This document shows, piece by piece, positions 2,808-23,339 of a stretch of DNA of 23,339 nucleotides (positions are counted from its first letter, which is position 1; each line of letters begins with the position of its first letter). Source of the DNA: a virus; IMG/VR virus record IMGVR_UViG_3300027782_003235, positions 1-23,339 of that record; one strand, written 5' to 3'. The position numbers were made by a program, and so were the translations under genes. The notes under the pieces were generated by a model, which worked only from the letters and a program-made list of their open reading frames with translations, did not search any database and was not told the origin of the DNA.

Positions 2808-2989
2808 AATACATTTTTATCGTTTATCAAAATCATTCTACCATCCTTTGTCATAAGTTTGGTAAATTGACCTTGCTTAATATATTCTGATTCTATATTT
2901 TCAAAAGTTCTTTTTTCACCACCCACAAAGTGTATTATTTGGGTGGTAAATTTTCCTTGTGATTTAACGCTTGATTGTAAATCTACCAT
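2780..2989 (-). CDS. Hypothetical 69-aa protein
   Basis: I do not recognise this small protein. It is 69 aa, without cysteine clusters, a signal peptide or a membrane segment. Residues 18-34 and 42-66 read as alternating hydrophobic and polar strands (TTQIIHFVGGEKRTF, then LMTKDGRMILINDKNVLCIEVF), consistent with a small all-beta fold. The evidence that it is real is its tight packing: its ATG overlaps the 3-dehydrase stop by one base (TAATG at 2989), and its end overlaps the next gene by 28 bp. It sits between two sugar-biosynthesis enzymes but has no carbohydrate-enzyme motif. It may be an unrelated phage gene inserted in the operon. Confidence 0.6.
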   Translation of the reverse strand: MVDLQSSVKSQGKFTTQIIHFVGGEKRTFENIESEYIKQGQFTKLMTKDGRMILINDKNVLCIEVFPQL

Positions 2990-4275: not shown

Positions 4276-4278
4276 AAC

Positions 4279-8212: not shown

Positions 8213-8862
8213 TCTCCTAATATTTTATGCCACTCAATTAAATCATTATCAGTAACTACTTTTACCCAATCTACTGATGTATCTGCCGATGAACTCATTT
8301 TGGTTTCTACGGGAAATCCTTTTATTTGTAATATTGGTTTAACTGCCATTTGTAAAAAATTATCACCATAATAAATTTTTATACCTTCTGGTACTGGCAC
8401 CCAATTACTTTTATGATAAATTAAACAACATGCCCATCCGCCACCTTTATCGTTATCAAAGTTAATCAATTCCAATTCAGGTTGATTATCTGATTCCATA
8501 TAAAAGTTATCCAAATGCATTCCAATAATACCTAAGTTTTTTAAACTATGTCCTGCCGAATCTGCATAGTTAATAAACTGTGTTAAGTTATCAACATCAA
8601 ATACTAAATCATCCTGTGTGTTTATTATATAATCATATTTTGCAAGTCTAACTCCCATATTCCATGCAGGGTTTACAAAAATGTTTTGATTTGGTTCAAC
8701 ATACACCAATTTCTCATGTCTTTCAAAATCAGGTGTTTTATCTTTTGCATTATTAATTAAAATAACCTCACCAACTTGCTCACATTCATATAAATTTTTT
8801 AATAATTGTGGTAACTTTGTACCATTCCATATCGTTGGTATGATTACTGAGAATTTTTCCAT
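8188..8862 (-). CDS. GT2-like glycosyltransferase
   Basis: The 224-aa protein begins FSVIIPTIWNG and has EVILINNAKDKTP (32-44), the classic first strand and second-strand Asn/Asp region of family 2 glycosyltransferases. NPAWNMGVRLAKYDYIINTQDDLVFD follows the GT2 pattern of N-x-G-x-x-x-A leading to a D-D pair (residues 84-85) as the metal-binding DxD equivalent. The later GGGWACCLIYHKSNW resembles the GT2 acceptor-side segment. It is short for a GT2 protein and ends soon after the catalytic core, without a membrane or processivity domain. Its ATG is 19 bp inside the end of the upstream gene. Specificity cannot be inferred. Confidence 0.72.
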   Translation of the reverse strand: MEKFSVIIPTIWNGTKLPQLLKNLYECEQVGEVILINNAKDKTPDFERHEKLVYVEPNQNIFVNPAWNMGVRLAKYDYIINTQDDLVFDVDNLTQFINYADSAGHSLKNLGIIGMHLDNFYMESDNQPELELINFDNDKGGGWACCLIYHKSNWVPVPEGIKIYYGDNFLQMAVKPILQIKGFPVETKMSSSADTSVDWVKVVTDNDLIEWHKILGEWRNYQSV

Positions 8863-9725
8863 TTTTCTATTAATTTGTCTACTACTTGAACTTGTGTATA
8901 ATTGTGTAATACTTTCATCATTCCATTGTGTGCAATTTGTTCTCTTTCCTCTTCGTTTTCATTGTAGTAGTTCATCTTTTCTATACAATCAAACATCTCA
9001 TCGTAATACACAATATCTTCACCTTCTATAAACATTTCGGATAGACCTGTTTCTTCTGGCAATCTATCAGTTAGAACCATTTTACCACATGCCATTCCTT
9101 CAAAAATTCTACGAGTAATTTCTTTCCATCTACTATTCTGAACTACCATCAATCCACTATTCAAAAATTCGGTATGTTCTTTGGCATCCATTCCGTTTTT
9201 ATTTCCAACACCACCTTCTGCCCATCTTGTAAGATAATCTAAAAATTCAGAATTACCGTATCCTCTACTTGTAACTGCCACATATTGTGGTTCTGTGTTT
9301 AATGGAAATTGAACTGCAGTATCTGCAAAGTGTGGAATCCAAAGAGAATCAATTCCCTTCTTACTATATTCCTCTGCACATTGTTTATCAGGTGTGATTG
9401 TTAAATGAAATCTATCTGCTTTTGGTGAATTTCTTTCAAAGTTTTGTGGGTCATCTCCACTTTCTTGTATCCAAAATGCGTTTGGTAATAACTTTTTATC
9501 TAAATAAGGTGAATCAAATCTACCCCAATCTAAAAACATTACTATATCAGTTTTTGGATTTAATTCTAACCATCTTTGCAATTTTAAATCATGATAACTG
9601 CCAGTTTTATTAGAACCAATTGAAACAATTTCAGTTTGCCAACCTCTCAATTGAAACTCTTTAACAATCGCCATTGGTGTAGACCATTCTTCACCATCAT
9701 AAGCGTATAAAAATGTTATTTTCAT
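8844..9725 (-). CDS. GT-B glycosyltransferase, CgeB/GT4-like
   Basis: This 293-aa protein fits a two-Rossmann-domain GT-B enzyme. The N-terminal domain starts MKITFLYAYDGEEWSTP and has a strand with IVMFLDWGRFD (61-71) and WIQESGDDPQNF (85-96). The latter segment is typical of CgeB-like glycosyltransferases. The C-terminal domain has the donor-binding segment EITRRIFEGMACGKMVLTD (202-220), matching R-x-F-E-x-x-A-C-G, and a following EGEDIVYY motif that family members use for the sugar nucleotide. It is coupled to the upstream GT2 gene by ATGA at 9722-9725 and overlaps the next gene by 19 bp. The sugar transferred is not known. Confidence 0.8.
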   Translation of the reverse strand: MKITFLYAYDGEEWSTPMAIVKEFQLRGWQTEIVSIGSNKTGSYHDLKLQRWLELNPKTDIVMFLDWGRFDSPYLDKKLLPNAFWIQESGDDPQNFERNSPKADRFHLTITPDKQCAEEYSKKGIDSLWIPHFADTAVQFPLNTEPQYVAVTSRGYGNSEFLDYLTRWAEGGVGNKNGMDAKEHTEFLNSGLMVVQNSRWKEITRRIFEGMACGKMVLTDRLPEETGLSEMFIEGEDIVYYDEMFDCIEKMNYYNENEEEREQIAHNGMMKVLHNYTQVQVVDKLIEKWKNSQ

Positions 9726-10345
9726 AAAGTTGAATAGTAACTGTTTTGTTTTTCTTGTCTTTTAATATCTTTTATATGTTTAATACAATATACCTCATCA
9801 CCTGGTAGGTTTGTATAAGATTCAAACCCACCAATTCTCTCATGTACTTTACCACTCCAACCTATAGTTGGTTTGTTTCTGTAAATACGAGTCTGTGCAT
9901 CTGGAAAATTAACCCAACCTTTTTCATTTACATTCCAACCCCATTGTTTAATGTGCTCATCGGTTAAACCATTTACTATGTTTATACGAGGAACTAATAT
10001 TAAATCTTTATCTACATTTGCATCTAAGATTTCTTCTAAATTAACAATCAAATTTTCATCTAAAAATTCATCCGCATCCAATTGAAATATCCACTCACCT
10101 TTGCATTGTGAGTTTAACAGATTCTTCCATTGTGCAAAATCATTATCAAATTCAGATTCAATCAATGTGATTTTATCAGCATTTGCTTGTAATTCCAAAT
10201 ATTCTATTAATTCTGGTTGTGCTTTGGGTGTATCCAATAGAACTACTACTTCTGAAGTTTCTCCTTTGTAGTTTAATAACTGAGTAAGTAATTTAATTGT
10301 TTCATCAAATTCATTACATATTGCAATTGCATAACTTATTTTCAT
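9722..10345 (-). CDS. GT2 glycosyltransferase
   Basis: The 207-aa protein is a compact family 2 glycosyltransferase. ISYAIAICNEFDE (3-15) is the nucleotide-binding start, and SEVVVLLDTPK (31-41) carries the second-strand aspartate. DNDFAQWKN (67-75) resembles the DFAxARN region, and GEWIFQLDADEFLDENL (83-99) holds the metal-binding DxDE. GWSGKVHERI (162-171) has the histidine-glutamate pair seen in the waaE/KdtX-like branch. This branch includes LPS-core beta-glucosyltransferases, so a similar transfer is plausible but unproven. It shares one base with the stop of the upstream gene (TAATG) and overlaps the next gene by ATGA. Confidence 0.82.
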   Translation of the reverse strand: MKISYAIAICNEFDETIKLLTQLLNYKGETSEVVVLLDTPKAQPELIEYLELQANADKITLIESEFDNDFAQWKNLLNSQCKGEWIFQLDADEFLDENLIVNLEEILDANVDKDLILVPRINIVNGLTDEHIKQWGWNVNEKGWVNFPDAQTRIYRNKPTIGWSGKVHERIGGFESYTNLPGDEVYCIKHIKDIKRQEKQNSYYSTL

Positions 10346-10845
10346 TATTCTTCTGTTTTTATAACTTCTTCTTTATTATCTGTTGAATATGGTGGTTGGT
10401 ATGGTTTATAATATGTCATTCTTGCTTGATGTTCATTCCACATATCAGCTGATGGTACATATGTATTATTTGTATAACTTACCGTACTACCAGTAGGATA
10501 TCCATACGCAGTTGATGTTACATATTGAGGTGTTGCGTATGTAATAGAACTTTGACCAGGTGTTGTTGTTATTGTTCCACTACTACCCGATGATACTGTT
10601 AGTGTTGTACCACTTTCACTAGTTATCTTATATGGGTTGTATGGGTCATATGGTTGGATAAATGGTAATGTTTGTATTGGTGTAGTATTTGGAACTCCAA
10701 ACGGAATAGAGTATGTTGGTTCATCCTTAACCTCTGCCAATTTTTCTTTTACAATATCCCATAGGATTGGAGAAACGCCATTTTTATATTCGTGTACTCC
10801 TTCTGTGAATCCTTTTAACCAAAGGATAAATTCTTTTGATGTCAT
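10345..10845 (-). CDS. Phage hypothetical protein with Ser/Thr/Tyr-rich tail
   Basis: The 166-aa protein has two parts. Residues 1-40 (FILWLKGFTEG, then P-x-L-W-D-I-V-K-E-K-L-x-E-V) look like a short helical module that recurs in many phage proteins: an EF-x-x-WLKGF helix followed by a W-x-x-I-x-x-x-L helix. I know no function for it. Residues 50-150 are low-complexity, rich in Ser, Thr, Tyr, Pro and Gly with no cysteine, and probably disordered or extended. The C-terminus is charged (NKEEVIKTEE). It is embedded between glycosyltransferase genes, 2 bp after its upstream neighbour and TAATG-coupled to the GT2 gene. A hydroxyl-rich tail beside many glycosyltransferases could be an acceptor, but that is speculation. 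Confidence 0.65.
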   Translation of the reverse strand: MTSKEFILWLKGFTEGVHEYKNGVSPILWDIVKEKLAEVKDEPTYSIPFGVPNTTPIQTLPFIQPYDPYNPYKITSESGTTLTVSSGSSGTITTTPGQSSITYATPQYVTSTAYGYPTGSTVSYTNNTYVPSADMWNEHQARMTYYKPYQPPYSTDNKEEVIKTEE

Positions 10846-10847
10846 AA

Positions 10848-11321
10848 CTATTGTTCTTTTAGTAACGATTTATTTGTTGGTTCTGCTTTTGGTAATTTGT
10901 TTTTGGGAACTAACTTAGTGTTATCCATATTGATATGAGTAATACTACCTAATCCACTCAATTTATAGGTTCTATATGAATCATTTGATATTATAGGTAC
11001 TGAACTTACTACTTTTTCATAAAAGTTTTTAGCACCACCTTTTATTTTCAATTCAGTATCTTCATTTACAAATTTACCAAAAAACTTTTTTATTAATTGT
11101 GGATTTACATTTGATACTTTAATTGCATGAACTATATCTTTTGCTTTTGATACAAATAAAGTATAAATTATTGGTGCAGATGCTGCCGAGTAATTGCCTT
11201 TATGTCCATCTACATATTCGTATTCTTTGATTATATAGAAATTACCCCTAACCATTTGACTAGGGATAATTTTATTAGATTCATCAATAAATCTTCTATA
11301 TAGTGGATTGAAATTACTCAT
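10848..11321 (-). CDS. Hypothetical 157-aa protein
   Basis: I do not recognise a named family. The 157-aa protein starts with a short amphipathic helix (NPLYRRFIDESNKI). A beta-rich segment GNFYIIKEYEYVDG (26-39) follows, then APIIYTLFVSKAKDIVHAIKVSNV (49-72) and a helix with IKKFFGKF (77-84). The C-terminus is lysine-rich and likely flexible. No signal peptide, membrane span or catalytic motif is evident. It overlaps the upstream glycosyltransferase by 8 bp and is followed after 2 bp by the Ser/Thr-rich protein, so the two unknown genes form a pair inside the glycosyltransferase run. The reading frame and packing support it as real. Confidence 0.6.
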   Translation of the reverse strand: MSNFNPLYRRFIDESNKIIPSQMVRGNFYIIKEYEYVDGHKGNYSAASAPIIYTLFVSKAKDIVHAIKVSNVNPQLIKKFFGKFVNEDTELKIKGGAKNFYEKVVSSVPIISNDSYRTYKLSGLGSITHINMDNTKLVPKNKLPKAEPTNKSLLKEQ

Positions 11322-12585
11322 CTTTTTTTAACATCTTCAATTTAGGTAATTGCAATTGTTGAAACTTAGGTTGTACTTTAGTATAAATACCATATTGATT
11401 CAAAATTACATCAAATAATTTGGTCATTTTTTCTAAACTAAAGTTTTGTTTATTTTGTTTACCCAATTGAAATGCTTCAGTTTTGTATTTATCATAATTC
11501 TTATAAACATCTTTAATTTTACTCAATGCGTTTGAAATATTTACATTAAACCATCTTGCTTCTTTCAATAAAAATTGGTCTGCCGCCGATTCATGTACTT
11601 CTTTCAATTCACCATCTAACAATACTGCACCACTTTTTAAGAAATCCAAATGACCACTCCATCCACTTACAATAATTGGCTTTCCTGTCAAACTGAATTC
11701 TAACAAAGGTCTTCCGAATCCTTCACCTTTTGTAAAGTTTAACATTGCTTTTACTTTTGGATGTTCATATAATCCGTTCATTTCAGCTTCAGTTAAATCA
11801 CCATGTAATAAATAAACTGGAACTTGTCCGTAATCTTTACCTAATACATCTCTAATCTTTTTAACAGTTGTTTCTCTATCCAATATACTAAATCCTGCTG
11901 AACTTGTTTTAAGAATCAATGCTGGCTTTTTCTTTTCATTTTTGAATGCCATTGCGAATGTTTTAATCATCATTCCAACATTCTTTCTATCTTCTCCCAA
12001 ATCACCTCTCAACCAATGCCCTACAAATAAGAATGCGAAATCTTCTTTGATTTCATCTAATTCTGAAACATATTGAAAATCATTAGTACCAAAGTTTTCA
12101 TTAAATCCTTCAAAAAGAACTTCAACTGGTTTTTCAATTTTATGTTGTTTGATTATTTGTTTAGTTTGGTTATCGGCTTCATTATAAACCGAATCTACTA
12201 AACTCTTTTTAGAATGCTCCGATGGAACTATAATCAAATCCATTCTATTACATCCATGTACCCAATCAATTGGTGAATGCGTTGTTTCAATTGCTGCAGT
12301 AATTCCAATGTTGTAAAATCCAACGGGTTGAAATTCATTTGGAACTGTAACCTGAATATAAATATCAGGTTTTTCTTGCACGTTTGGAACTATATTATCA
12401 ACTACCCATTTATGAAATTCATTATCATAATTAAGAGCATCCATTGGGGTCTGTCCCCAACGAGTGCTGATAATTTTAATATCAAATTTATCTAATTTAT
12501 ATAGAGAATGTAATAAATCTCTTGCGTGGTCACCATAACCACTTCTTGTTGCTACTGGTGCTTGAAATACTAATGTTGGTTTCAT
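11314..12585 (-). CDS. GT4-type glycosyltransferase (GT-B fold)
   Basis: The 423-aa protein is a GT-B enzyme of the GT4 type. The N-terminal domain opens with LVFQAPVATRSGYGDHARDL (5-24), where the SGYG loop is the usual acceptor-side glycine loop. IIVPSEHSKKSL (118-129) is the family's interdomain V-P-S-x-x-x-K segment. The C-terminal domain has FLFVGHWLRG (185-194), a donor-phosphate region ALILKTSS (222-229), and the signature FTKGEGFGRPLLEFSLTGKP (284-303), in which E288 and E296 are the E-x7-E pair. It follows the 460-aa GT4 gene with a one-base gap and overlaps the next gene by 8 bp. It is cytosolic by appearance; substrate unknown. Confidence 0.88.
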   Translation of the reverse strand: MKPTLVFQAPVATRSGYGDHARDLLHSLYKLDKFDIKIISTRWGQTPMDALNYDNEFHKWVVDNIVPNVQEKPDIYIQVTVPNEFQPVGFYNIGITAAIETTHSPIDWVHGCNRMDLIIVPSEHSKKSLVDSVYNEADNQTKQIIKQHKIEKPVEVLFEGFNENFGTNDFQYVSELDEIKEDFAFLFVGHWLRGDLGEDRKNVGMMIKTFAMAFKNEKKKPALILKTSSAGFSILDRETTVKKIRDVLGKDYGQVPVYLLHGDLTEAEMNGLYEHPKVKAMLNFTKGEGFGRPLLEFSLTGKPIIVSGWSGHLDFLKSGAVLLDGELKEVHESAADQFLLKEARWFNVNISNALSKIKDVYKNYDKYKTEAFQLGKQNKQNFSLEKMTKLFDVILNQYGIYTKVQPKFQQLQLPKLKMLKKDE

Positions 12586-12586
12586 A

Positions 12587-13969
12587 TTATAATTCTATAA
12601 CTTTAAATTTTTTCTTTGGTGTCCAATTTTCAAATGCCCCATCCATACCTTCTACTAATGCATTACACATTGCTTCTCTACTTAACAACCCATCACCCAA
12701 CATCCACTTTCTACCTTTTTCTGCTGCTGCTTTTCTTTCCTCTCTACCCATTTTATAAAAATCCATAATTAGAGGAGCAATATCTTCAAAATCAACTCTA
12801 TCATCAAAGATATATGGAGTAGGAACTGAACCTGTTGTTGAACGAACTGGCCAAATTGGTTTAACCCAATCTCCCCAAACTACGGTATTCTTTTTGTATC
12901 TATCATGTAAAGAACCAATTTCTACATAATCTTCAGCAGTTAATAACTTACCCGTACCTTTATCTCTGAATCCACATTGGTCTTGTAAACCACCGGTTAC
13001 GTTAACTATGATTGGTGTTCCCGCCATTACTGATTCTGCTGTTGCCAACCCAAATCCTTCATTGGATGCTACATTTATTGTTACATCTCCTAAATTGTAA
13101 AGATAATTTAATTCAATCTCTGTATAACGATTTGGTGCAAATATAACATTTGTTTCCGGTGTACAACATTCATCTATTGTTCTTGGTAAATCTGTACCAT
13201 TTTCATCTACAGGTTGTGTGTGCATTAATAAACATACTTTATCTCTATGTTCTGGTGCCAATGCTTTTACAAACTCATTAAATGCAAGAATTACATCAAC
13301 TGGTTGTTTTCTACGAATGTTTCTGTTATTCCAATAAAGAACAAAATCATATTCTTTTTCACCAAAGATTTCTTTTTTAAATTCAGCGGGTACTTCAACC
13401 GATTTATATAAGTCAGAATTGATACCATGTGGTACATAACTTACTTGCCAATCAGCAGGTTTAGTCCAATGTTTTTCTCTATCCCAACTCCAAACTCTTT
13501 TAGTAATACCATACGTTTGTTTTGAAATACATCCAATCCAATCACAACTTTCGTAATAATCTCTGTTGTATTTTGGGTCTGGTAAGTCATCCCAAATGTG
13601 ATAGAAGAAAAGGGGTACTGATTGACGAATTTCGTGCTCAATCTCATATAACCAAATCCAATATCTTGGGTCTGTAAAGTGTAAGATTGCATCGGGTTTC
13701 TCCATCATTAACAATTGACGAATAACATCTGGATTACCATACCCATCAAACGGAATAATTTTTACATTTGCATCCGCTACACCAGTTTGTTTACGAATAT
13801 CATCATTTAAATCTAAAATTTTACCTGCTTCTGGATGTTTGATTGCTGCTCCTAATTGTACCCAATCGTACTTATCAACCGTTCCCATAACTAACTGTTT
13901 GGAAACATTGGCTATTCCACTAGCCATTCGGAGGTCATCCGATAATAATAGTATTTTCTTTTTTGCCAT
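12587..13969 (-). CDS. GT4-type glycosyltransferase (GT-B fold), first gene of the sugar block
   Basis: The 460-aa protein is a GT-B glycosyltransferase. It starts KKILLLSDDLRMASGIANVS, with the SGIAN loop at 17-21. It continues with a Rossmann strand at KPDAILHFTDPRYWIW, a YVPHGIN interdomain segment (178-184) and WNNRNIRRKQPVD (213-225), the phosphate-binding arginine/lysine region. The signature NEGFGLATAESVMAGTPI (303-320) contains E304 and E312 of the GT4 E-x7-E motif. It is the first gene of the carbohydrate block and is separated from the nuclease gene by a 32-bp gap with a T4-like late-promoter box only six bases from its ATG. The leader has no Shine-Dalgarno sequence. Its substrate is unknown. 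Confidence 0.87.
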   Translation of the reverse strand: MAKKKILLLSDDLRMASGIANVSKQLVMGTVDKYDWVQLGAAIKHPEAGKILDLNDDIRKQTGVADANVKIIPFDGYGNPDVIRQLLMMEKPDAILHFTDPRYWIWLYEIEHEIRQSVPLFFYHIWDDLPDPKYNRDYYESCDWIGCISKQTYGITKRVWSWDREKHWTKPADWQVSYVPHGINSDLYKSVEVPAEFKKEIFGEKEYDFVLYWNNRNIRRKQPVDVILAFNEFVKALAPEHRDKVCLLMHTQPVDENGTDLPRTIDECCTPETNVIFAPNRYTEIELNYLYNLGDVTINVASNEGFGLATAESVMAGTPIIVNVTGGLQDQCGFRDKGTGKLLTAEDYVEIGSLHDRYKKNTVVWGDWVKPIWPVRSTTGSVPTPYIFDDRVDFEDIAPLIMDFYKMGREERKAAAEKGRKWMLGDGLLSREAMCNALVEGMDGAFENWTPKKKFKVIEL

Positions 13970-14001: not shown

Positions 14002-14874
14002 TTAGATTTTTCCATCACATATTCCCCTTTGGGAGAACTCACACCATTTACAATTCTTTTTATTTTTACCAGGGTTCTTTACAAATTCTACCTGTTTGTA
14101 ATCACCATTCTCATCAAATACACTATCTACAAATTCCTTAAATGAATTCCATGCTTTAGTAACAGATGGTTTACCATTTGCAGGTATGTGCTTTGAAATA
14201 CGAGGTATTGTATAATCGGTTGATTCCGATACTTTTCGTTTTAGTATGATGAATTCAACATCAATCATATCTTGAGATATATTTAATAATTCTGCATAAA
14301 ACTTTTTATAAAGAAGTATTTGTGCATTTTTAATCTCATCTGCTTTTTGGTATTTGTTCCAACCCATTGTAGATGTTTTAAAATCTATAATACGATAGCG
14401 ACCTGAAACTTTGTTTCTAACCACCATATCTAAAAATCCTAAAAAACTTACATTTTCTGCAATTTTAGTATTAATAGGTTGTTCAATTGCTACCAACTCA
14501 TCATTTGTTAATGAAAAGAAACTGTTGAAGTTTTTAGGTTTTTGAAAATAATCTAATATAAGATTTCCATCTTCTAAAAACTCAACTAATTCTTCTTTTG
14601 TACAAATAGGATTAGTACCATCTAATGATTCTTTTAAATATAACTCACGCATCTTCTCTTTCAAAAATGCCTTTGTATCCATTAGTTTATCTGCTTGTGA
14701 TTTTGAAATACGCAAACACTTATCCAAATAAGTTTGGAGTGTTTCGTGCATTGCAGTTCCAAATACTAAATGGATATTTGATGTAGAGATAGATAATCCA
14801 TCAATATAATTTAACTTATACTGGTATGGACATCCGCTCCACATTGAGTATTGACTAAAAGAAACTCTTCCCAT
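14002..14874 (-). CDS. Cas4/AddB-like Fe-S PD-(D/E)XK nuclease
   Basis: The 290-aa protein is a RecB-family nuclease with an iron-sulfur cluster. The N-terminal FSQYSMWSGCPYQYKLNY (6-23) supplies C15. H43 in FGTAMHETL is the helical-domain histidine, and E131 precedes the core. GFLDMVV (146-152) supplies D149, and RIIDFKTS (161-168) supplies D164-x-K166 of the PD-(D/E)XK motif. NAQILLY (183-189) is the RecB-motif Q-x-x-x-Y. The C-terminal C275-X2-C278-X7-C286 completes a four-cysteine cluster with C15. Cas4 and AddB proteins use this architecture to degrade or resect DNA ends. It is TAATG-coupled to the clamp-loader small subunit, suggesting a job in phage replication, recombination or host DNA breakdown. 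No helicase domain is fused. Confidence 0.85.
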   Translation of the reverse strand: MGRVSFSQYSMWSGCPYQYKLNYIDGLSISTSNIHLVFGTAMHETLQTYLDKCLRISKSQADKLMDTKAFLKEKMRELYLKESLDGTNPICTKEELVEFLEDGNLILDYFQKPKNFNSFFSLTNDELVAIEQPINTKIAENVSFLGFLDMVVRNKVSGRYRIIDFKTSTMGWNKYQKADEIKNAQILLYKKFYAELLNISQDMIDVEFIILKRKVSESTDYTIPRISKHIPANGKPSVTKAWNSFKEFVDSVFDENGDYKQVEFVKNPGKNKKNCKWCEFSQRGICDGKI

Positions 14875-15326
14875 TATATTTTAAGTTTAAGTTTGGTAAT
14901 CTGTTTTGAGTCAATACCATATTTTTGACAAATAAATTTAATGTTTTCTCTACCTTCTCTCGAAGAATATAGAATTTCTATGTAATCAATAGCTTGGTGC
15001 TCAGAACAAATATACTCAGTTTTTATGAGATTTACAAGCCATTCCTCATATTTTTCTCCCGCTTTTCCTTTAATATATTTTAAGTAATACTTACCTTTGG
15101 GTATGATATTAATATACAACTTATACATTTCCTCTGGTGATAACGTTTGAGTTAAAGGTAGTATAGTTGCAATGAGTTCTACCCATTCCGGTTTCATAGA
15201 AAGGAATCTATTAATCATAAAATTACTCCAACTCTTAATATCTTCCTCTGATAATTTATCAAAGTAGTTTGGGTCTTGCTCCGATGTAATTGCAGCAATG
15301 TGGTCAAATAACTTTTTTCCTGCCAT
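14874..15326 (-). CDS. 62: Clamp-loader small subunit, T4 gp62-like
   Basis: The 150-aa protein resembles the T4-type clamp-loader accessory subunit. It begins KLFDHIAAITSEQDPNYFDKLSEED, followed by WSNFMINRFLSM (33-44), a pattern typical of gp62 homologues of T4-like phages. It carries no ATPase motif, as expected, because gp62 bridges the gp44 AAA+ ring. T4 gp62 is 187 aa, so this is a shorter form. It sits one small gene downstream of the gp44-like subunit and shares TAATG junctions with both neighbours, which would help keep subunit stoichiometry. The C-terminus is basic (ITKLKLKI). Confidence 0.82.
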   Translation of the reverse strand: MAGKKLFDHIAAITSEQDPNYFDKLSEEDIKSWSNFMINRFLSMKPEWVELIATILPLTQTLSPEEMYKLYINIIPKGKYYLKYIKGKAGEKYEEWLVNLIKTEYICSEHQAIDYIEILYSSREGRENIKFICQKYGIDSKQITKLKLKI

Positions 15327-15565
15327 TATTCTACTATTGATGATGGTTTATCTCTTAATTCCAAAGGTAGTAACTCTTGCAATGCTTTACCACATTGAGT
15401 ACAAAGATACATTTCAACTGGAATGATTGAATCTTGTGCTTGACCTGTTACTAATCTTGATAATTTTTTGAATCTAAATCCTGGCATAAACACTTTGTTG
15501 CCACATTCGCAATCCATATCTCTTGCATCATTTATATTGATGCCCATTGGTAATCCTTGTTGCAT
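15326..15565 (-). CDS. Small zinc-binding protein of T4-like phages
   Basis: The 79-aa protein has a split zinc-ribbon: C19-x-C21 in DMDCECGNKVF and C55-x2-C58 in YLCTQCGKAL, with a basic segment RFKKLSRL between them. Proteins with this DxxCECG...F-x-P-x-F-x-F-K-K layout are known to me from T4-like phages as uncharacterised, so no function is assigned. It lies between the two clamp-loader subunit genes with TAATG overlaps on both sides (15565 and 15326), so it must be translated with them. A role in binding nucleic acid or the replisome is plausible from the zinc-ribbon and its position, but is inference. Confidence 0.75.
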   Translation of the reverse strand: MQQGLPMGININDARDMDCECGNKVFMPGFRFKKLSRLVTGQAQDSIIPVEMYLCTQCGKALQELLPLELRDKPSSIVE

Positions 15566-16512
15566 TACTTTATAATGTTTAAAATTTGAATAATTGTACT
15601 CATAAATATTATTTCTTTATCTACGACTAATGCATCTTTAGATATACCTTCTGCTATAGTTAGGATTACATTTGCCGTATTACCTGATGCGTATTCATCT
15701 ACTTTATCATATAACATAGAATACATTTCAGAATAATCATTTAATCTATTATCAGCAATTGCTTGTCTGATATTCATAAACATATTACGTTTGTCATCAT
15801 TTGCTTTTAACAAATCTACCAATTTAGTTTGGAAGTTAGATTCCACCATAATTTGATGGTCTACTTTTAATTCTCCTTTTGCAGATTGTAATTGGCAAGT
15901 ATTTAAGATTCTACGAATATCTGGATAATATGAACTGATAATATCAGCTACATTTTTTAAATCGTATTTAATTTTTTCTGTATCCAAAATCTTAGTAACC
16001 TGAATTGCTACATCTTTTTTAGTTGGAGGTGTAATTGCAAATGATTGGCATCTACTTTGAATTGGGTCAATAATTTTTTCAATATAATTACAAGTCAAAA
16101 TAAAACGACAATGTTTACTAAATGTTTCCATCAAATTTCTCAAAATTGCTTGAGCGTTTGGAGTCATATAATCAAACTCATCTAAAATGATTATTTTAAA
16201 ACCTGCAAATCCAACTGATGATGCAAAGTTCTTCACTTTATTACGAACCGTATCCACATTGTTTTCATCCGATGCATTGATAATCATAAAATCACATTTG
16301 ATTGTGTTTACGATTAATTTAGCAAGTGTGGTCTTACCCGTACCTGCTTTACCATAAAGTAATAAATGCGGAATATCGTTGTTATCCAAATATTGTTGGA
16401 TAGTTTCTTTTACGGTTTCATTGCCAACATATTCGGCAAGAGTAGTCGGACGATATCGTTCTACCCATAAACTATGCTCTTTTTTATTAATGTTATTTGC
16501 GAAAAAACTCAT
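15565..16512 (-). CDS. 44: Clamp-loader AAA+ ATPase, T4 gp44-like
   Basis: The 315-aa protein is an RFC/gp44-type AAA+ clamp-loader subunit that uses ATP to open the sliding clamp and place it on primed DNA. It has WVERYRPTTLAEYVGN (16-31), the usual RFC-box start, and Walker A GKAGTGKTT (54-62). Walker B is IIILDEFD (107-114, a DE-x-D box), sensor 1 is LTCN (139-142), and the arginine-finger SRC motif is at 153-155. A sensor-2 region lies in DIRRILNTCQ. The length is close to T4 gp44 (319 aa). It follows the dUTPase gene by 6 bp, with an A-rich leader and no Shine-Dalgarno sequence, and is TAATG-coupled to the zinc-protein gene. Confidence 0.94.
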   Translation of the reverse strand: MSFFANNINKKEHSLWVERYRPTTLAEYVGNETVKETIQQYLDNNDIPHLLLYGKAGTGKTTLAKLIVNTIKCDFMIINASDENNVDTVRNKVKNFASSVGFAGFKIIILDEFDYMTPNAQAILRNLMETFSKHCRFILTCNYIEKIIDPIQSRCQSFAITPPTKKDVAIQVTKILDTEKIKYDLKNVADIISSYYPDIRRILNTCQLQSAKGELKVDHQIMVESNFQTKLVDLLKANDDKRNMFMNIRQAIADNRLNDYSEMYSMLYDKVDEYASGNTANVILTIAEGISKDALVVDKEIIFMSTIIQILNIIK

Positions 16513-16518
16513 CTTTTT

Positions 16519-16944
16519 TTATTTACCTGTTGAACCGTATCCACCTTTACCTCTACTACTTTCACTCAATTCATCTACCACCTCCAATTGAATTACAGGA
16601 TGCGGAACTATGATGATTTGGCAAACTCTATCTCCTACATTATATGCAATAGAATCCAATCCATTTAACTTATTAAAAGTTGCTTGCAATTCGCCTCTAT
16701 ATCCCGCATCAATAACACCAACTGAATTACTTAGTATTAATTCGGTGTTTCGTATTGATGAGCGAGGAAATACCAAACCAACCATGCCTTCTGGTATTTC
16801 CATCGCTATACCTAAACCATATGTTATTTGAAATGTGGTGTTTGATATAATTTTAGTTGCTACTAAATCTAATCCTGCATCATTTTCTTTTGCATACTTT
16901 GGTTTAACTGAATTTTCATCTAACAATTTAATCTTTACTTTCAT
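16519..16944 (-). CDS. dut: dUTPase
   Basis: The 141-aa protein is a trimeric-type dUTP diphosphatase, which turns dUTP into dUMP and pyrophosphate, keeping uracil out of phage DNA and supplying dTMP synthesis. All five family motifs are present: AGLDLVA (23-29), PRSS (60-63), GVIDAGYRGE (76-85), GDRVCQI (104-110) and RGKGGYGSTG (131-140). The frame stays open upstream to an ATG at 17145, but the extra 67 residues lie inside the neighbouring 104-aa gene in another frame. The family starts at MKVKIKLL, so I place the start at 16944. This leaves a 17-bp overlap with the preceding gene. A clamp-loader gene follows after 6 bp. Confidence 0.95.
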   Translation of the reverse strand: MKVKIKLLDENSVKPKYAKENDAGLDLVATKIISNTTFQITYGLGIAMEIPEGMVGLVFPRSSIRNTELILSNSVGVIDAGYRGELQATFNKLNGLDSIAYNVGDRVCQIIIVPHPVIQLEVVDELSESSRGKGGYGSTGK

Positions 16945-17242
16945 TTTGTTCTGCTCTTGCTTGTTTACTTTCTTCTGAAATTGGTCTTGGGAATATTCTA
17001 AATGCCATTCCATTGTGTGTAAACGATAAACCTTCGGTTTCAACTGGTTGAATTTGTAAAACCAATGGCGCAGGTTCATCTCCTTCACTTGAGTATGCAA
17101 ATACCACAGGTTCGTTGTTAAAAAATTGAAAACACCATTCTGCATCTACGATTGGTTGTACTTCTGATGTACTTACTTCATTTGTTTGATTGAAGTCTTG
17201 CTCCACTTCTTCTTGTGGAAATAATTCTAATTGTTCTGTCAT
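16928..17242 (-). CDS. Hypothetical 104-aa protein with QLELF clamp-binding-like motif
   Basis: I do not recognise a named family. The 104-aa protein is acidic at its N-terminus (EQLELFPQEEVEQDF) and has a probable small beta domain from about 30 to 90, with AEWCFQFFNNEPVVFAYSS (34-52) and GLSFTHNGMAFRIFP (71-85). The C-terminus is a charged helix. Residues 4-8 read QLELF, which fits the bacterial beta-clamp-binding consensus QL(S/D)LF. The gene is the next one after the clamp gene and just before dUTPase, so a clamp-binding role is suggested by both motif and position but is not shown. The leader is A-rich without a Shine-Dalgarno sequence. It starts after a 37-bp gap. Confidence 0.7.
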   Translation of the reverse strand: MTEQLELFPQEEVEQDFNQTNEVSTSEVQPIVDAEWCFQFFNNEPVVFAYSSEGDEPAPLVLQIQPVETEGLSFTHNGMAFRIFPRPISEESKQARAEQNESKD

Positions 17243-17279: not shown

Positions 17280-17993
17280 TTAATTACTTATCTCAACAAG
17301 ATAATATTTACATACAAAATCATCAATTTGGAATTCAACATGTGATAATCCATCTACTGATACTTTTAATTTTGCATTTGTTGCTTCTTTGTTTGCTGTC
17401 AAAATCTCTTTTAAATACTTTGCTGAAAAAGAAATTGGTTTAATTGTTTCAGAGTATCCTTTAATTACGGTAAAGGTAACTCTATTTGTAGAGATAGAAG
17501 AATAACCAATTGCCATCTTTAAATCACCACCTTCACTAAATACAGTAAATGTATCTATATCGGATAATGCACCTTTTGCTTTGATAAACTTATCAATCAT
17601 ATTTGATGCCATATCAATTGAAATACCAAATTCAGGCAATTGCTTTAAATCTGGAACCGGCGGAATAACTCCCAAATCTGCTAACTGATATGATGTTTCA
17701 GTTTCATCGGAAAATAATTTTAAAGATACTGCTCTATCGCCTACAATATCAACTTTTAATGATAAATCATTATCTAAAATACCAATCATATTTTTTAATA
17801 AAGATGTAGTATATACACCAATTCCAAATGGAGTAGATGTATAAGCGTTATACTCAACTTCACCCAATAACGTTTTATCATCGGAAATAAATCTTACTGA
17901 TAATTTGCTACCTTCAGCGTTCCACGCTACTGATTCAATTAATCCACCCAATGAATACTTTTGAATGAATTTTAATAAATTGTTTTTGTTCAT
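17280..17993 (-). CDS. 45: Sliding clamp, T4 gp45-like
   Basis: The 237-aa protein is close in length to the T4 sliding clamp (228 aa) and has its two-domain, beta-rich look. MNKNNLLKFIQKYSLGGLIESVAW is the start, and FISDDKTLLGEVEYN is a first-domain strand pair. An interdomain region follows around ADLGVIPPVPDLKQLPEF (125-142), with repeating strand segments in the second half and a C-terminal FVCKYYLVE strand. The clamp rings DNA and tethers polymerase; in T4 it also activates late transcription. It lies just downstream of the polymerase gene and upstream of the clamp loader, the T4-type neighbourhood. The 46-bp gap before it contains a good Bacteroidetes-type promoter, so it may be transcribed separately from the polymerase. 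Confidence 0.9.
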   Translation of the reverse strand: MNKNNLLKFIQKYSLGGLIESVAWNAEGSKLSVRFISDDKTLLGEVEYNAYTSTPFGIGVYTTSLLKNMIGILDNDLSLKVDIVGDRAVSLKLFSDETETSYQLADLGVIPPVPDLKQLPEFGISIDMASNMIDKFIKAKGALSDIDTFTVFSEGGDLKMAIGYSSISTNRVTFTVIKGYSETIKPISFSAKYLKEILTANKEATNAKLKVSVDGLSHVEFQIDDFVCKYYLVEISN

Positions 17994-18020: not shown

Positions 18021-18051
18021 CAAATATACGAAAAATTTTTTAAAAAGCAAA
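18021..18051 (-). promoter_or_regulatory. Bacteroidetes-type promoter before the clamp gene
   Basis: On the minus strand, TTTG (complement of 18048-18051) is followed after 19 bases by TATATTTG (complement of 18021-18028). This fits the -33 TTTG and -7 TAnnTTTG elements used by Bacteroidetes sigma factors. The -7 box is in the intergenic gap, about 27 bases upstream of the clamp ATG, while the -33 box lies in the last codons of the polymerase gene. The start site would leave an A-rich leader of roughly 20 bases. Similar but weaker boxes occur inside genes, so the location in the widest gap is the main support. Confidence 0.55.
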
Positions 18052-20595
18052 GAATTTCTTTGCCGTTTTTGTATCTTCTGTCACTTTTTCCCATTTTAGG
18101 GCGTTATAGAAATCATCTACTTTATTTTCTAATTCAGCTTTGTAAATCATATCTCTATCAATATATTGTTCTACAAAGTCTATAATCTCTTTTGGGTCAT
18201 TATAATCCTTAAATGCCACCGTATCTAATCCTAATGGATTTGTTTTAAGATATACCCATTTAACTTTATCACCATCTCTTATTGGTTCGTGTTTATATGG
18301 ACAATTAAAGAATTTTAATAATCTATTATATGATATTCCCGCTTTAACGTGCGCAGGTGTTCCTTTTTCAAAGTTTGCTACCGAATCACCGGTTCTCCAA
18401 CTACCATTATCATATTTACTCAACTCTTTGATTGCTCCACCTTTAGCTATTTTATTAACTGGCAAATTAATCATATTCTTTTTAAATTCTAATAACTTAC
18501 CATCAACGTAATCATTATCCTTGCCCATCAAAATATCCTTTAACATACCGGACATTTGCTCCTGAAATGCTTTTGGAAACGATGAACGAACTACATCCAA
18601 TCCCTTAACATCTAACTTATCACAAGGAATACCATTCTTCAAAATCATCCATTGTGCATATCGTTTTTTTGCTACCCAAAATCCTGCTTTACTGATATAT
18701 TCTTTTTTGATTTCAAATCTATGTTTATCTTTTGGAATAAAGAAAAACCTTTCTGCCAACATATCATAGAATGAATTTAAGAATGTTTGAGTTTCGGTTG
18801 CAATGGTATCTACTTCAATTGCCATTCGTTTTTCATCAAACTCTTTGTATTGGGGATATCTATGTTTTACCAAAGGTTCTGCCATCATATAAATAGAATC
18901 GGTATCTATGTATACGTTGTAATCTTCTTTAGTTCCTAATTCTTTCCAATATTTGATGTTTGCCATCTCTGCCGTTTTCTTAATAACAGTTTGACCCGTA
19001 ATCGTAACTGCCTCTGCATTATCAATATCGTAAAACCGAAAGGCAGGAAGACCAAGAACACCATACATAGAATTAAGAAGAATCTTCTGAACCAACTGCC
19101 TTTTAGCATAAAATTCATATTTCTCCGTATCACCCGCTTCACCATATTTTTTTTCTAATTTTCTAAATTCTACACGTTTATCAAACCAATTATTAAGAAT
19201 ATCTGCAATTAGACCTGGTTTATCTTGTGTATACAGTACTCCGTTTGCAGCAACACCCAAATTACTATCTTTAATAACTTCCTTTAGTTCCTGAGTAGTA
19301 TATGAGTATTCATCACCATCCTTACCTACTAGTTTATATGTCGTATCTAATCCTTTAATATTAGCTTCTGCATCCCAATTTTCAATCTTACCAACTTTTG
19401 TTTCAGGACTAATATTAAGAGTCATAATAATTGATGGATATAGAGATGTTAAGTCCAAGTCATAAATCCAATCATACTTACCAACAATAGGTTCTTTTAC
19501 ATAAGCTCCAATAAACTTCTCTTGATTATTATCTTTTAAAGCTTTCATTCTTTCCTTTCTATCCTTTGGTTTGTTAGTTGCAATCAATCCTTTGGTTTTA
19601 AGATATCCCAAACAAGCACCCTCTAACCATTTTGATGAATATATGTAATCTTCATATGGAACAAATCCAGCGTGACAAACGGCTCTACATAATTCAATAA
19701 ATTGTAATTTTTCATCCATTGCTACTACCAACTCCACATCGGTAATGTTATATTCAATGAATTTTTCCAAGTCAGTTTCAAACAAATCATCCAAACTTCC
19801 TTCGTATTCAATCTTACCTCTACCTAATTCTTTAGTTGCAATGTAATTCAATGTATACGATGCTTCCAACGTATATGTGTAGGTTTTGTATAGATTAATA
19901 TAATCCAAAATACTTACACCACCAAAACTAAACTTCTCTCTATATGGTGACCAGAATGCTTCTCCAATACAGGATAATCGTTTAGCATGCCCTTCTCCGC
20001 AAACATTTCTGATACGATTATAAAGATATGGAATATCAAAGAAATCTATATTCCAACCTGTTAAAATTGTTGGTCCAATTTGTTGGTAATAGTTAAGAAA
20101 TGCAAGTAGGAGGTTTTTCTCATTATCAAAAATATGAACATTAACTTTCCTACCATCCTTATCAAAGTTTTTGGCATTGTTTTTTACTTTTCTTTCTTTA
20201 TCTAATACAAATACATCATAATTCTTTGTAATAGAATCATGCGATGCAATTGCTGTAATTTCATTTTGAGCTTCTCGTGTTGATGGTAGACCTGTAATCA
20301 TTTCCACCTCAATATCAAATGTTAATACAACGTGTCCATTTGATGGTAAATCCGTATTGTAAATATCAACTAACATTCTAGTTGTTTCAGGTACATCCGA
20401 TTCAAATAAATCATCTGCCTCATCTTTTTCCCATTTTGAAATACGAGTCAATTTATCTCCATAAATAGATTGATGTTGCCCATATGGGTCTTTCTTATAC
20501 GCATACTTTCGGTATGGCATTGTGGAATATCCATTGGTATCATCCCACAGATGAATTAAATTTTTTGCTCTTTGATAGTATATATTTTTGTACAT
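18040..20595 (-). CDS. 43: Family B DNA polymerase, T4 gp43-like
   Basis: The 851-aa protein is a replicative family B polymerase with 3'-5' exonuclease (T4 gp43 is 898 aa). Exo I is FDIEVE (93-98), Exo II GWNIDFFDIPYLYNR (180-194) and Exo III YNITDVEL (282-289). Polymerase motif A is DLTSLYPS (381-388), motif B KRQLVQKILLNSMYG (498-512) and motif C YIDTDS (562-567). All catalytic aspartates and the exonuclease D94 and E96 are intact. The protein ends TAKKFFAF, an aromatic tail like the C-terminal clamp-binding peptides of phage and archaeal polymerases. The start at 20595 is preceded by AGGGAG seven bases upstream, one of very few Shine-Dalgarno-like sites here, which may support strong translation. 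It follows the DruA-like gene by 3 bp. Confidence 0.96.
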   Translation of the reverse strand: MYKNIYYQRAKNLIHLWDDTNGYSTMPYRKYAYKKDPYGQHQSIYGDKLTRISKWEKDEADDLFESDVPETTRMLVDIYNTDLPSNGHVVLTFDIEVEMITGLPSTREAQNEITAIASHDSITKNYDVFVLDKERKVKNNAKNFDKDGRKVNVHIFDNEKNLLLAFLNYYQQIGPTILTGWNIDFFDIPYLYNRIRNVCGEGHAKRLSCIGEAFWSPYREKFSFGGVSILDYINLYKTYTYTLEASYTLNYIATKELGRGKIEYEGSLDDLFETDLEKFIEYNITDVELVVAMDEKLQFIELCRAVCHAGFVPYEDYIYSSKWLEGACLGYLKTKGLIATNKPKDRKERMKALKDNNQEKFIGAYVKEPIVGKYDWIYDLDLTSLYPSIIMTLNISPETKVGKIENWDAEANIKGLDTTYKLVGKDGDEYSYTTQELKEVIKDSNLGVAANGVLYTQDKPGLIADILNNWFDKRVEFRKLEKKYGEAGDTEKYEFYAKRQLVQKILLNSMYGVLGLPAFRFYDIDNAEAVTITGQTVIKKTAEMANIKYWKELGTKEDYNVYIDTDSIYMMAEPLVKHRYPQYKEFDEKRMAIEVDTIATETQTFLNSFYDMLAERFFFIPKDKHRFEIKKEYISKAGFWVAKKRYAQWMILKNGIPCDKLDVKGLDVVRSSFPKAFQEQMSGMLKDILMGKDNDYVDGKLLEFKKNMINLPVNKIAKGGAIKELSKYDNGSWRTGDSVANFEKGTPAHVKAGISYNRLLKFFNCPYKHEPIRDGDKVKWVYLKTNPLGLDTVAFKDYNDPKEIIDFVEQYIDRDMIYKAELENKVDDFYNALKWEKVTEDTKTAKKFFAF

Positions 20596-20598
20596 TTA

Positions 20599-21825
20599 TT
20601 ATCTCCCTACTTCTTTTAAATAATTATCTTTCATTTGTTCCCATGTCATTCCTATTGCATTTACATAAAATAGAACTTCGGGTTTAATCCTCCCATCATT
20701 GTATAATGTGGTATATCGTTTAATTGCTTTATCTTTCCACCATTTAATAGTATAATCATTTCCATCAGCGAATTTCTTTTTAAGAACTAAATCCTTCTCT
20801 TCTATTTTAGAACAAAGGAACTCATTACCATTATCATACATTTGTGCAAAATACACTCCTCTTTGGAATCCGTGGTCATAGGCATTACCTTTGATACCCA
20901 ATTCTTTAAAGATTGCCTGAATAATCTTTTGTTTAATTCCACTTACAGGCCCGTTTCTATCGTAACCCATATTAGCACCATTTCTTTCTCTCTCATCCAT
21001 AATGTGCATCTTATACCAATCAGCACGATTTTCTTTCAACCATTGATGCCACGGGTCATAAACCTTATCATCTGGCTTTGTAGAAATCTTACCTTTAGAT
21101 TCTCCCAATGTTTTGAAATGTGGAATACCATTATATTGAGAATGTACACCATATAACGATGTAGTTCCAACTCCAACTAATGGATTATCATATTTCTTTT
21201 TCCAATAATCTCTAATTTCAGGGCAGGTTGCCAATGCTGCAATTAATTTACCACCTAAGAAATTATATCCAAATGGTTGAGTTGATACAATAGTAGTTGC
21301 AATTGTAGTACAATTTAATTTACCATTCTTAAATTTATCTTCCTTTTGCCACCCAATGTAATTATCTCTAACACCTAATGATGTAATATCAGAACCTAAG
21401 CAAATTTGTCCTAATATTTTACCAGTAACTCTATCCTTTACATAACATTTTACATTACGACCTGGATTCGCCTGAAACTCCATTGTATGGATTAATCTAC
21501 GAATTTCAGTCCATCGTGTGGATTCTTTTGCATTATCATCCACAATATCAACATAAGGTTCTATTGCTTGAATTTCAGCAATAGTTAATTCCTTATTCAT
21601 TATATCCGTAGGTTTCCATAATGAATCATAATGAGATTGTAATACAGGTAATTTTTTCATATTACCAATTAAATCTTCATTCCACTCCATCCATTTTTTG
21701 TAAAGAGTTTGCTCTTCAACTGACATTGTTCGTAAATAATCCAAGTTCTCAATGAACTTTTTTTTCATTACATCATAATCAAATACTTCTGTGTTGGTTT
21801 CTTCACCACTATCCCAAAATTTCAT
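20599..21825 (-). CDS. DruA-like (DUF4338) protein
   Basis: The 408-aa protein matches the conserved core of DUF4338, the family of DruA from the Druantia anti-phage system. Visible segments are PGRNVKCYVKD (121-131), GKILGQICLGSD (135-146), VRDNYIGWQ (152-160, the RD-x-x-IGW hallmark), a following FGYNFLGGKLIAAL block (185-198), RDYWKKKYDNPLVGVGTTS (205-223) and YNGIPHFKTLGESKGK (231-246). A helical N-terminal region (1-105) and a C-terminal extension (250-408) flank it. The molecular role of the family is not known to me. It sits one base after a glycosyltransferase gene and 3 bp before the polymerase gene, so a part in phage DNA metabolism is more likely than defence. No partner resembling DruB-E is present in the window. 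Confidence 0.65.
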   Translation of the reverse strand: MKFWDSGEETNTEVFDYDVMKKKFIENLDYLRTMSVEEQTLYKKWMEWNEDLIGNMKKLPVLQSHYDSLWKPTDIMNKELTIAEIQAIEPYVDIVDDNAKESTRWTEIRRLIHTMEFQANPGRNVKCYVKDRVTGKILGQICLGSDITSLGVRDNYIGWQKEDKFKNGKLNCTTIATTIVSTQPFGYNFLGGKLIAALATCPEIRDYWKKKYDNPLVGVGTTSLYGVHSQYNGIPHFKTLGESKGKISTKPDDKVYDPWHQWLKENRADWYKMHIMDERERNGANMGYDRNGPVSGIKQKIIQAIFKELGIKGNAYDHGFQRGVYFAQMYDNGNEFLCSKIEEKDLVLKKKFADGNDYTIKWWKDKAIKRYTTLYNDGRIKPEVLFYVNAIGMTWEQMKDNYLKEVGR

Positions 21826-21826
21826 A

Positions 21827-22930
21827 CTATATAATTTTCCAATTTTTTAAACTATGTTTCCAATATAACTTCTCAGCTATTACCTTTGTATTAGGTCTTT
21901 CTATTTTACCATCCAAATAATCAACTAGCATTTTTACAAATTCTTTTTTACCACTATAAAGTAAAGGATAATCTTCACCAACCATTTCTTCATAACATAA
22001 ACCTTTAGGTAAAATATATGGTACATTCATACTTAATCCATCGGTTGTACTCATACTCCATGCTGAATATTTTGTGAAACACCCAACACCTATATCCGCA
22101 CTACCCACATTATTTTTATAATGTTCTCTATTGGGATGTCGTATTGATTCTGTATATGGTTTTGAAACACTAGCTATTGATGTAAGAACTTTAAAATCTT
22201 GCCTTTGTTCCCACAATTTATCCATCTCTTCAAAGAACCAATCAGCGCCAGTATACCCATCTGCTCTATGATTAAATAAAATTGTTTTTGGTTTTACCAC
22301 ACCTTCTACCCATTCATCGCATCCTAAATACCAAGGCTGAATGATTGTATCTAATTTTTCCAATTGTTCTTTATTCAGAAACTCACTTGCTCTTTTTAAA
22401 ACTAAATTTTTAACCCATTTTGAGTTTACTCCACATACACTCATTTTTAACATACCTTGTACATTTGCCCAAAAAGAATTGTGATTATATGCACCATTTT
22501 CAGGAATTTCCCACCAATGGCAATATCCTAAAACAGGTTGAGTAACTGTGTTGTATCTTCTAATGATTAATAATTGATTAGTCCATTCCGGCAAATGTGA
22601 CCAAATGATATCAATCCCTTCTTCTGAAAATATCTTTTTAAATGCAGATTGGGGAAATTGAATTCTCATCAATGGTGGAAATGTGCTAATATTCCCCATA
22701 TTAATAAGTTTTACATTTTTATATTTCATAAAATCCGTTGGCATATTACCATTTGGATATGGAATTATAAATTGTAAATTATTGTAATCGGTATTATCCA
22801 AAAATGATTTCATAACTAACACAAACGAATCTGCGTTTATATTTTTACCTTCACCAAAATGAGTGTAGTTTGGTACTACCAATACCTTCTTATGAAAATT
22901 ACCTATTTCTGATTCCCAAAATTTATTCAT
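21827..22930 (-). CDS. GT-B-like glycosyltransferase beside the polymerase genes
   Basis: The 367-aa protein has the outline of a GT-B glycosyltransferase. The N-terminal Rossmann-like domain starts KKVLVVPNYTHFGEG (14-28) with later strands LQFIIPYP and IDIIWSHLPEW. A middle segment, MSVCGVNSKWVKN (163-175), matches the usual V-x-S-x-W interdomain stretch. The C-terminal domain has ILFNHRADGYTGADWF (217-232) with a likely donor-binding histidine/arginine, and MSTTDGLSMNVPYILP (293-308), an acidic-glycine donor site. It is separated from the main glycosyltransferase block by the replication genes, lying one base upstream of the DruA-like gene. That position makes glycosylation of phage DNA worth considering, but no DNA-base modification gene is visible, and a protein or polymer acceptor is equally possible. 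Confidence 0.65.
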   Translation of the reverse strand: MNKFWESEIGNFHKKVLVVPNYTHFGEGKNINADSFVLVMKSFLDNTDYNNLQFIIPYPNGNMPTDFMKYKNVKLINMGNISTFPPLMRIQFPQSAFKKIFSEEGIDIIWSHLPEWTNQLLIIRRYNTVTQPVLGYCHWWEIPENGAYNHNSFWANVQGMLKMSVCGVNSKWVKNLVLKRASEFLNKEQLEKLDTIIQPWYLGCDEWVEGVVKPKTILFNHRADGYTGADWFFEEMDKLWEQRQDFKVLTSIASVSKPYTESIRHPNREHYKNNVGSADIGVGCFTKYSAWSMSTTDGLSMNVPYILPKGLCYEEMVGEDYPLLYSGKKEFVKMLVDYLDGKIERPNTKVIAEKLYWKHSLKNWKII

Positions 22931-22938
22931 AATTATTA

Positions 22939-23339
22939 TTATATAATACCCAATTTATCCGTATAAACTACCACTCTATCTTTATCTATTTTTAATTCTC
23001 CAAAAAAAGTATCTAAATTAGAACTAGCTAATTTATGCATATCAACGGTAGCATAAGCTGCGCCAGCTTTATTCCAAATATCCCCACTCGTTCTACCATA
23101 CGAAACATAACATCTATCATATTCAGGTGTAAATCCAGCAAAAAGGAAATATCCATCTTTTGGATTTTTACAAACATACTTTATTTTGTTACCATCTTTA
23201 ATTAAACATGTCTTTACTTCAATTCCACCATTATGCATTGGGAATTGGATATCCTCATCATTATGTTTTTTTGGCGGAAATGCCGTAACCTCATCGGGAT
23301 TATTAGCTCTATGATTTATAGAATGTGCAATAGCATTAG
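22939..23339 (-). CDS. Hypothetical protein, 5' end beyond window
   Basis: The frame is open from the right edge to the TAA at 22939, about 133 residues. An ATG at 23238 is present, but the 33 codons upstream of it are also free of stops and read as ordinary coding sequence (for example NAIAHSINHRANNPDE). The real start is therefore probably outside the window. I do not recognise the protein. The visible part is mostly beta-like, with TCLIKDGNKIKYVCK (two cysteines), DGYFLFAGFTPEYDRCYVSYG (as short stretches) and a C-terminal DRVVVYTDKLGII. It ends 8 bp before the glycosyltransferase ATG. It has no signal or membrane segment in the visible part. Confidence 0.65.
   Translation of the reverse strand, partial: NAIAHSINHRANNPDEVTAFPPKKHNDEDIQFPMHNGGIEVKTCLIKDGNKIKYVCKNPKDGYFLFAGFTPEYDRCYVSYGRTSGDIWNKAGAAYATVDMHKLASSNLDTFFGELKIDKDRVVVYTDKLGII

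Follow-up and report, generated by a model that had tools for sequence, protein, structure and literature searches.

The original description of Druantia reportedly assigns to DruM, a methylase, the position in type II that DruA occupies in type I. The product of Mom, a DNA-modifying protein of phage Mu, is N6-carbamoylmethyladenine. Mom catalyzes acyl transfer to adenine N6 (PMC7824862, in the accessible text), the defence literature treats what DruA does biochemically as unknown (PMC7251935, in the sections available), and the accessible part of PMC8565338 names DruM and gives no function for it. DruA-like proteins of phages have already been published, with six Synechococcus phages reported in the available text of the Phold paper (PMC12774648). 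The same is true of the GNAT assignment of DUF4338: the accessible part of PMC10853773 describes a DndF fusion whose DUF4338 portion is a GNAT domain, and proposes this domain to be a protein-targeting co-effector. An exchange of DruA with Dam, a link between DruA and Mom, and a role of DruA in DNA modification were not found in searches of open-licence PMC text.

Here, we analyzed a DruA gene located in the replication region of a T4-like phage and compared its setting with that of its relatives in other phages and in bacteria. Throughout, the window denotes the full 23,339-nt stretch that was analyzed, positions 1-23,339 of IMGVR_UViG_3300027782_003235.

Results

A DruA-family gene in a replication operon

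The earlier note on this DNA had assigned the protein encoded at 20599-21825 to the DUF4338 family, described it as carrying an added C-terminal region, and placed its gene between a glycosyltransferase and a DNA polymerase. The features of the window that bear on this description are the following.

14874..15326, minus strand: clamp loader small subunit, gp62-like (phrog_225, E 4e-16)
15565..16512, minus strand: clamp loader large subunit, gp44-like (phrog_168, E 2e-83)
16519..17145, minus strand: dUTPase (phrog_135, E 2e-49)
17280..17993, minus strand: sliding clamp, gp45-like (position; weak matches to PCNA_C and phrog_12062)
18040..20595, minus strand: family B DNA polymerase, gp43-like (phrog_262, E 2e-179)
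20599..21825, minus strand: DruA/DUF4338 protein, 408 aa, predicted GNAT fold, proposed DNA-modification enzyme (profiles, model, dN/dS)
20815..21570, minus strand: PF14236 DruA domain, residues 86-337 of the DruA ORF (profile match)
21827..22930, minus strand: GT-B-fold (GT4-like) glycosyltransferase, 367 aa (predicted structure)
22939..23337, minus strand: C-terminal part of a protein truncated at the edge of the window (intact form on contig L221)

The DruA ORF starts with ATG, and profile searches confirmed its family membership: PF14236 matched with E 8.9e-19 at 68.2 bits, above its cut-off of 27, the PADLOC DruA profile with E 1.7e-20, and phrog_19197 with E 7.6e-31. Profile searches of the same protein for PF25680 (Mom) gave no match up to E 10, and those for PF02086 (D12 methyltransferase) gave none. 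The two neighbors were also correctly named. The family B polymerase, recognized by profile, lies 3 nt downstream of DruA. One nucleotide upstream, the 367-aa ORF at 21827-22930 has no Pfam or NCBIfam match in a profile search, and its model matches GT-B glycosyltransferases with Z 19-24 over about 270-335 aligned residues. Regarding the C-terminal region, the last ~70 residues do fall outside the Pfam model, but calling them an addition is right only in part, as defence DruAs are likewise about 400 aa long. These residues contain a WW-x-K-A-x-x-RY-x-x-L pattern that is common to the cyanophage copies and partly to the pelagiphage copies. Conserved polar residues elsewhere in the protein (R123, R153, K193, S223 and Y231) suggest an active site, and comparison with 13 relatives places the gene under purifying selection (dN/dS 0.05-0.10, NG86).

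The clamp, the dUTPase and both clamp-loader subunits are encoded on the DruA strand, and together they constitute a T4-like phage replication operon. Downstream of these replication genes, positions 95-13969 hold a long same-strand run of glycosyltransferase-like and sugar-nucleotide genes, among which aminotransferase-like, reductase-like and nucleotidyltransferase-like genes were recognized by eye, and two genes give weak glycosyltransferase family matches. Decoration of the virion, or of modified DNA bases, is a possible function of this run.

Relatives of the window gene occur in 31 annotated phage records (25 Synechococcus phages, one Cyanophage, three Pelagibacter phages and two marine single-cell viruses) and at 64 loci in IMG/VR, of which 63 enter the position tallies, locus L064 containing too little DruA to count. 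A same-strand replisome gene (gp43, gp45 or gp44) lies within 3 kb of DruA in 59 of the 63 loci and within 60 nt in 39, an opposite-strand replisome next to DruA was seen in none of the 63, and the remaining four have no replisome gene within the DNA retrieved. A glycosyltransferase directly adjoins DruA in 29/63 loci. Gene order differs, with DruA before gp43 or between gp45 and gp44, and with or without the glycosyltransferase. DruA nevertheless remains within the operon, and in distant T4-like phages as well it belongs to the replisome operon and shares its strand. These positions support the earlier suggestion of a housekeeping, non-defence role beside the polymerase. Tandem duplicates of DruA are present in L052/L053 (copies at 8839-9999 and 9989-11212 in L052), and L050 has a second, partial DruA at 4057-4776.

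A predicted GNAT fold

We built an AF2 model of DruA from 18 phage sequences (pLDDT 83.1, pTM 0.81). Mom of phage Mu (8bv8_A) ranked first among 998 chains aligned by VIA-align, with Z 10.9, an rmsd of 3.9 and 177 of 222 positions aligned to residues 84-339 of the model; the next entries were spermidine and aminoglycoside acetyltransferases (Z 9.5-10.0, 141-151 aligned). The titles of the 50 solved entries listed, with Z 8.7-10.9, all name GNAT or GNAT-fold enzymes. The fold of DruA, as modeled, is that of a GNAT; because the lead of Mom, Z 10.9 versus 10.0, counts as a tie in VIA-align, we claim a GNAT and not a Mom. Past the DruA-like proteins of phages and giant viruses, the next BFVD match with a name was the Mom of a Salmonella phage (E 0.02, probability 0.98). 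A Foldseek search of the model against the PDB gave weak GNAT matches, none below E 0.001, and a PDB sequence search with DruA returned nothing relevant. Profile-profile comparison of a 29-sequence DruA profile was non-significant both with Mu Mom and with a 14-sequence Mom profile (hhalign probability about 1% for the latter), the weak local matches falling on plausible strands. BFVD also contains matches to DruA from giant viruses (A0A3G4ZXG3, A0A5K0UAJ3 and A0A3G4ZRA1; Faunusvirus, Yasminevirus, Dasosvirus), which are structurally significant (E 3e-16 to 3e-9) at 18-22% identity.

DruA and Dam alternate at one locus

In 13 of 14 annotated cyanophage regions with DruA, the gene is located between gp44 and gp62, as judged by position; in S-PRM1 and S-SRM01, the gp62 gene is not labeled as such. 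The exception is S-B68, in which DruA lies beside gp47 and gp46. The same slot in the DruA-less phages S-SM1 and Sf-FP1 is occupied by a D12 N6-adenine methyltransferase, referred to here as Dam (PF02086, 1e-27 and 3e-33). We then considered the best 80 IMG/VR matches to gp44 of a DruA-carrying phage, a sampling that inflates the share of DruA. The 57 complete gp44-gp62 slots held Dam in 35 cases, DruA in 19, neither in 3 and both in 0, an exclusion with a Fisher value of 2e-12 that is uncorrected for relatedness. In 13 of the loci counted as Dam, the called gp62 ORF overlaps Dam; another 12 of the 80 loci are truncated and were classed by the visible gene (Dam 8, DruA 4), and 11 are uninformative. 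Mapping DruA versus Dam onto a gp44 tree with 84 rows requires 17 changes of label, of which supported branches force 11 or more; restricted to the 54 complete one-gene slots, the mapping requires 12, of which at least 8 are forced.

Searches of whole records found the slot Dam absent in 17/17 DruA phages and present in 2/2 controls; this check covered 17 of the 31 DruA phage records, and to judge by their names most of the other 14 are repeat entries or sister isolates. S-SCSM2R, a DruA phage, encodes a distant D12 methyltransferase outside the slot. Tallied by organism name, and not paired record by record, Synechococcus records of the phage collection number 330 with Dam, 25 with DruA and 376 with gp44, and Cyanophage records 60, 1 and 61, respectively. 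By these tallies, most cyanophages are without DruA and carry Dam there instead. Since DruA and Dam are unrelated, replace each other repeatedly at a single locus and are never found together in it, the simplest reading is that their jobs are equivalent or incompatible. The job of Dam is DNA base modification, and DruA, which swaps with it, therefore probably marks phage DNA. The ratio of observed to expected GATC showed no difference between DruA and Dam cyanophage loci (0.68 vs 0.74), and the usage of other 4-mer palindromes showed no informative difference between them.

Mom genes accompany DruA in the clade of the window

Within the clade to which the window belongs, DruA is usually preceded by two tandem genuine Mom genes (PF25680, E about 1e-44); in L230, for example, Mom genes at 6033-6794 and 6781-7581 are followed by DruA at 7610-8836 and then by gp43. 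Contig L221, which shares 15,297 nt with the window at 99.993% identity, extends past the window edge. On it, the edge-cut ORF at 22939-23337 is intact as a 399-aa protein (L221 1190-2389), which has a weak ParB_N match below the cut-off (E 0.003). Beyond this ORF, outside the window, L221 carries one complete copy of Mom and a stub of another.

Over whole records, Mom was found in 13/14 window-clade DruA records versus 0/9 DruA-less gp43 relatives, a contrast that, like the others within this clade, is confounded by relatedness. The absence of DruA from these nine was established by whole-record search (0/9), and two of their records are above 200 kb. The single window-clade record with DruA and without Mom measures 148 kb and is perhaps incomplete. 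The gp43 scan behind this comparison covered 80 loci, of which 10 repeats were dropped and 70 counted, 40 with DruA and 30 without, many of them truncated. Among cyano- and pelagiphage DruA records, Mom occurs in 1/16, and it occurs in 0/2 Dam cyanophages (whole records); as 15 of the 16 do without it, Mom is not a required partner of DruA.

A putative amino-methyltransferase of ~523 aa is present in 9/9 DruA-less relatives, between gp45 and gp43 wherever gene order was read, and a search of 30 DruA records found it in none. Contig L021/L248 (one contig) has DruA and Mom together with a match to this protein. When three copies were compared with PF01555, one was over the cut-off (E 4.7e-6, the best), one just under it, and one gave no match. 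The D12 methyltransferase profile PF02086 matched in 0/23 window-clade records. The DruA-less relatives G415-G423 mostly have a second, and some a third, related amino-methyltransferase copy at 36-39% identity. Separately, the T4-like Methylophilales phage Melnitz-2 contains a Mom-family gene annotated as DUF465 (L135 5992-6801), for which 165 IMG/VR relatives were confirmed.

The window has 0 GATC sites versus 55.9 expected from shuffles of its 23,339 bases. The observed/expected ratio is 0.04 in pooled DruA relatives, 0.09 in DruA-less relatives and 0.68-0.74 in cyanophage loci. This extreme avoidance in the phage group of the window suggests that the host has a strong system that cuts GATC or is linked to Dam.

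Phage and bacterial copies of DruA

A complete DruABCDE set is present in P. putida pKF715A, and DruA was over the cut-off in 16/398 Pseudomonadota genomes. DruE was found in 0/30 DruA phage records, with 2/2 plasmid controls positive. The DruA tree, from which we left out bacterial DUF4338 proteins with a matched part of <150 aa, rows >85% identical and the L050 fragment, places phage and bacterial copies on two sides of one long branch (support 97/88). It had been suggested that the phage gene displays an ancestral, non-defence function of DruA. The phylogeny does not bear this out, because the tree is unrooted with long branches, and neither the order of descent nor the direction between phages and bacteria can be read from it. 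The Pseudomonadota matches L114-L129 include several short DUF4338 proteins (frames of roughly 90-330 aa) that match the model in part; two further matches are interrupted by stop codons.

Discussion

We consider it probable, with appreciable room for doubt, that the window DruA is a GNAT enzyme that modifies the bases of newly made phage DNA and is expressed with the replisome, a reading in which we infer both catalysis and the DNA substrate. Phage DruA would be made together with the replisome and would act on newly made phage DNA at the fork. Its target base would most likely be adenine, as for Mom and Dam, and the group transferred would probably be a small acyl or related group. The resulting mark may shield the phage genome from host nucleases, or may separate phage from host DNA. 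In this role, DruA would fill the place of the DNA methyltransferase of sister phages; in the clade of the window, it may work beside two Mom-family enzymes and possibly also the adjacent GT-B glycosyltransferase. The base, the transferred group and the benefit of the modification are what we infer.

The main rival to DNA modification is that DruA is a protein or small-molecule acetyltransferase, whose protein targets, for instance the clamp loader or RNA polymerase, would come from the replisome or the host, and whose action would favor phage replication. Most GNATs on the structural list do act on proteins or small molecules, and the gene lies inside a replisome operon. However, this explanation leaves unaccounted for both the exchange of DruA with a DNA methyltransferase in one slot and the linkage to Mom in the window's clade, and we regard it as unlikely. 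A non-catalytic replisome accessory on a GNAT scaffold, serving as a DNA-binding or clamp-loader partner, would fit the tight coupling to gp45, gp44 and gp43 described above, yet most cyanophages dispense with DruA and have Dam there by the name tallies, and the conserved polar residues suggest an active site; we judge it very improbable.

The homology of the phage protein to defence DruA, combined with the lack of DruE, would also suit a DruA mimic that poisons the DruABCDE complex, and the earlier note had raised such a decoy or inhibitor of host Druantia. The proposal does not predict the one-for-one replacement of Dam or the linkage to Mom, an exchange with Dam being unexpected for an anti-Druantia factor. 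Moreover, DruA is kept in the replication operon across phages of hosts as different as cyanobacteria and Pelagibacter, and the core GNAT positions it has in common with defence DruA are retained. We give this explanation very little weight, and a phage DNA-modification enzyme is most likely what DruA is, rather than a decoy. Least credible to us is a phage-borne defence gene directed against competing phages, an orphan Druantia. PADLOC and Pfam do name the protein as Druantia, but the DruE searches described above were negative in the phages and positive in the controls, the gene occupies a replisome operon and not a defence cargo site, and the phage copies form a separate clade.

The recurrent exchange with Dam at a fixed phage locus and the linkage to Mom give the DruA family a specific, testable function. 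If DruA modifies DNA, modified bases should await discovery in the genomes of cyanophages, pelagiphages and freshwater T4-like phages, and a mechanism for Druantia type I suggests itself. More tentatively, and as a whole more doubtful than not, DruA may represent a distinct GNAT family of base modifiers that replaces the Dam mark at the fork in T4-like phages, with Druantia type I being coupled to modification and the clade of the window possessing a hypermodification module. If true, DruA of Druantia type I would serve the helicase-nuclease DruE by marking or reading DNA, and the window-clade DruA, the two Moms, the ParB-like protein and the GT-B glycosyltransferase would form one module.

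Among described systems, the Phold-paper phages encode proteins of the same family as the window DruA, and S-PRM1 is also among the loci studied here; the accessible text of that paper (PMC12774648) notes structural similarity only and gives no context, exchange or role. For the DndF-fused DUF4338 (PMC10853773, in the text available), the fold assignment agrees with ours, whereas protein targeting is proposed there and DNA modification here. DruA of Druantia type I (pKF715A) belongs to the same Pfam family over about 250 residues, and has the GNAT core and the total length of phage DruA; the two differ in that identity is about 20%, the phage copies form their own clade, and the phage gene lies in a replisome operon without DruE, whereas the Druantia gene lies in a defence island. 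Mu Mom (PF25680), which modifies DNA adenine, is likewise phage-encoded with a GNAT fold, and is the top match, in a tie with other GNATs, and the longest near the top of the listed solved structures for the DruA model, but its sequence relation to DruA is non-significant. The Dam-type D12 N6-adenine methyltransferase of cyanophages (PF02086) occupies the same gp44-gp62 slot as DruA, the two being mutually exclusive there, although one is a D12 methyltransferase and the other a GNAT, members of unrelated families.
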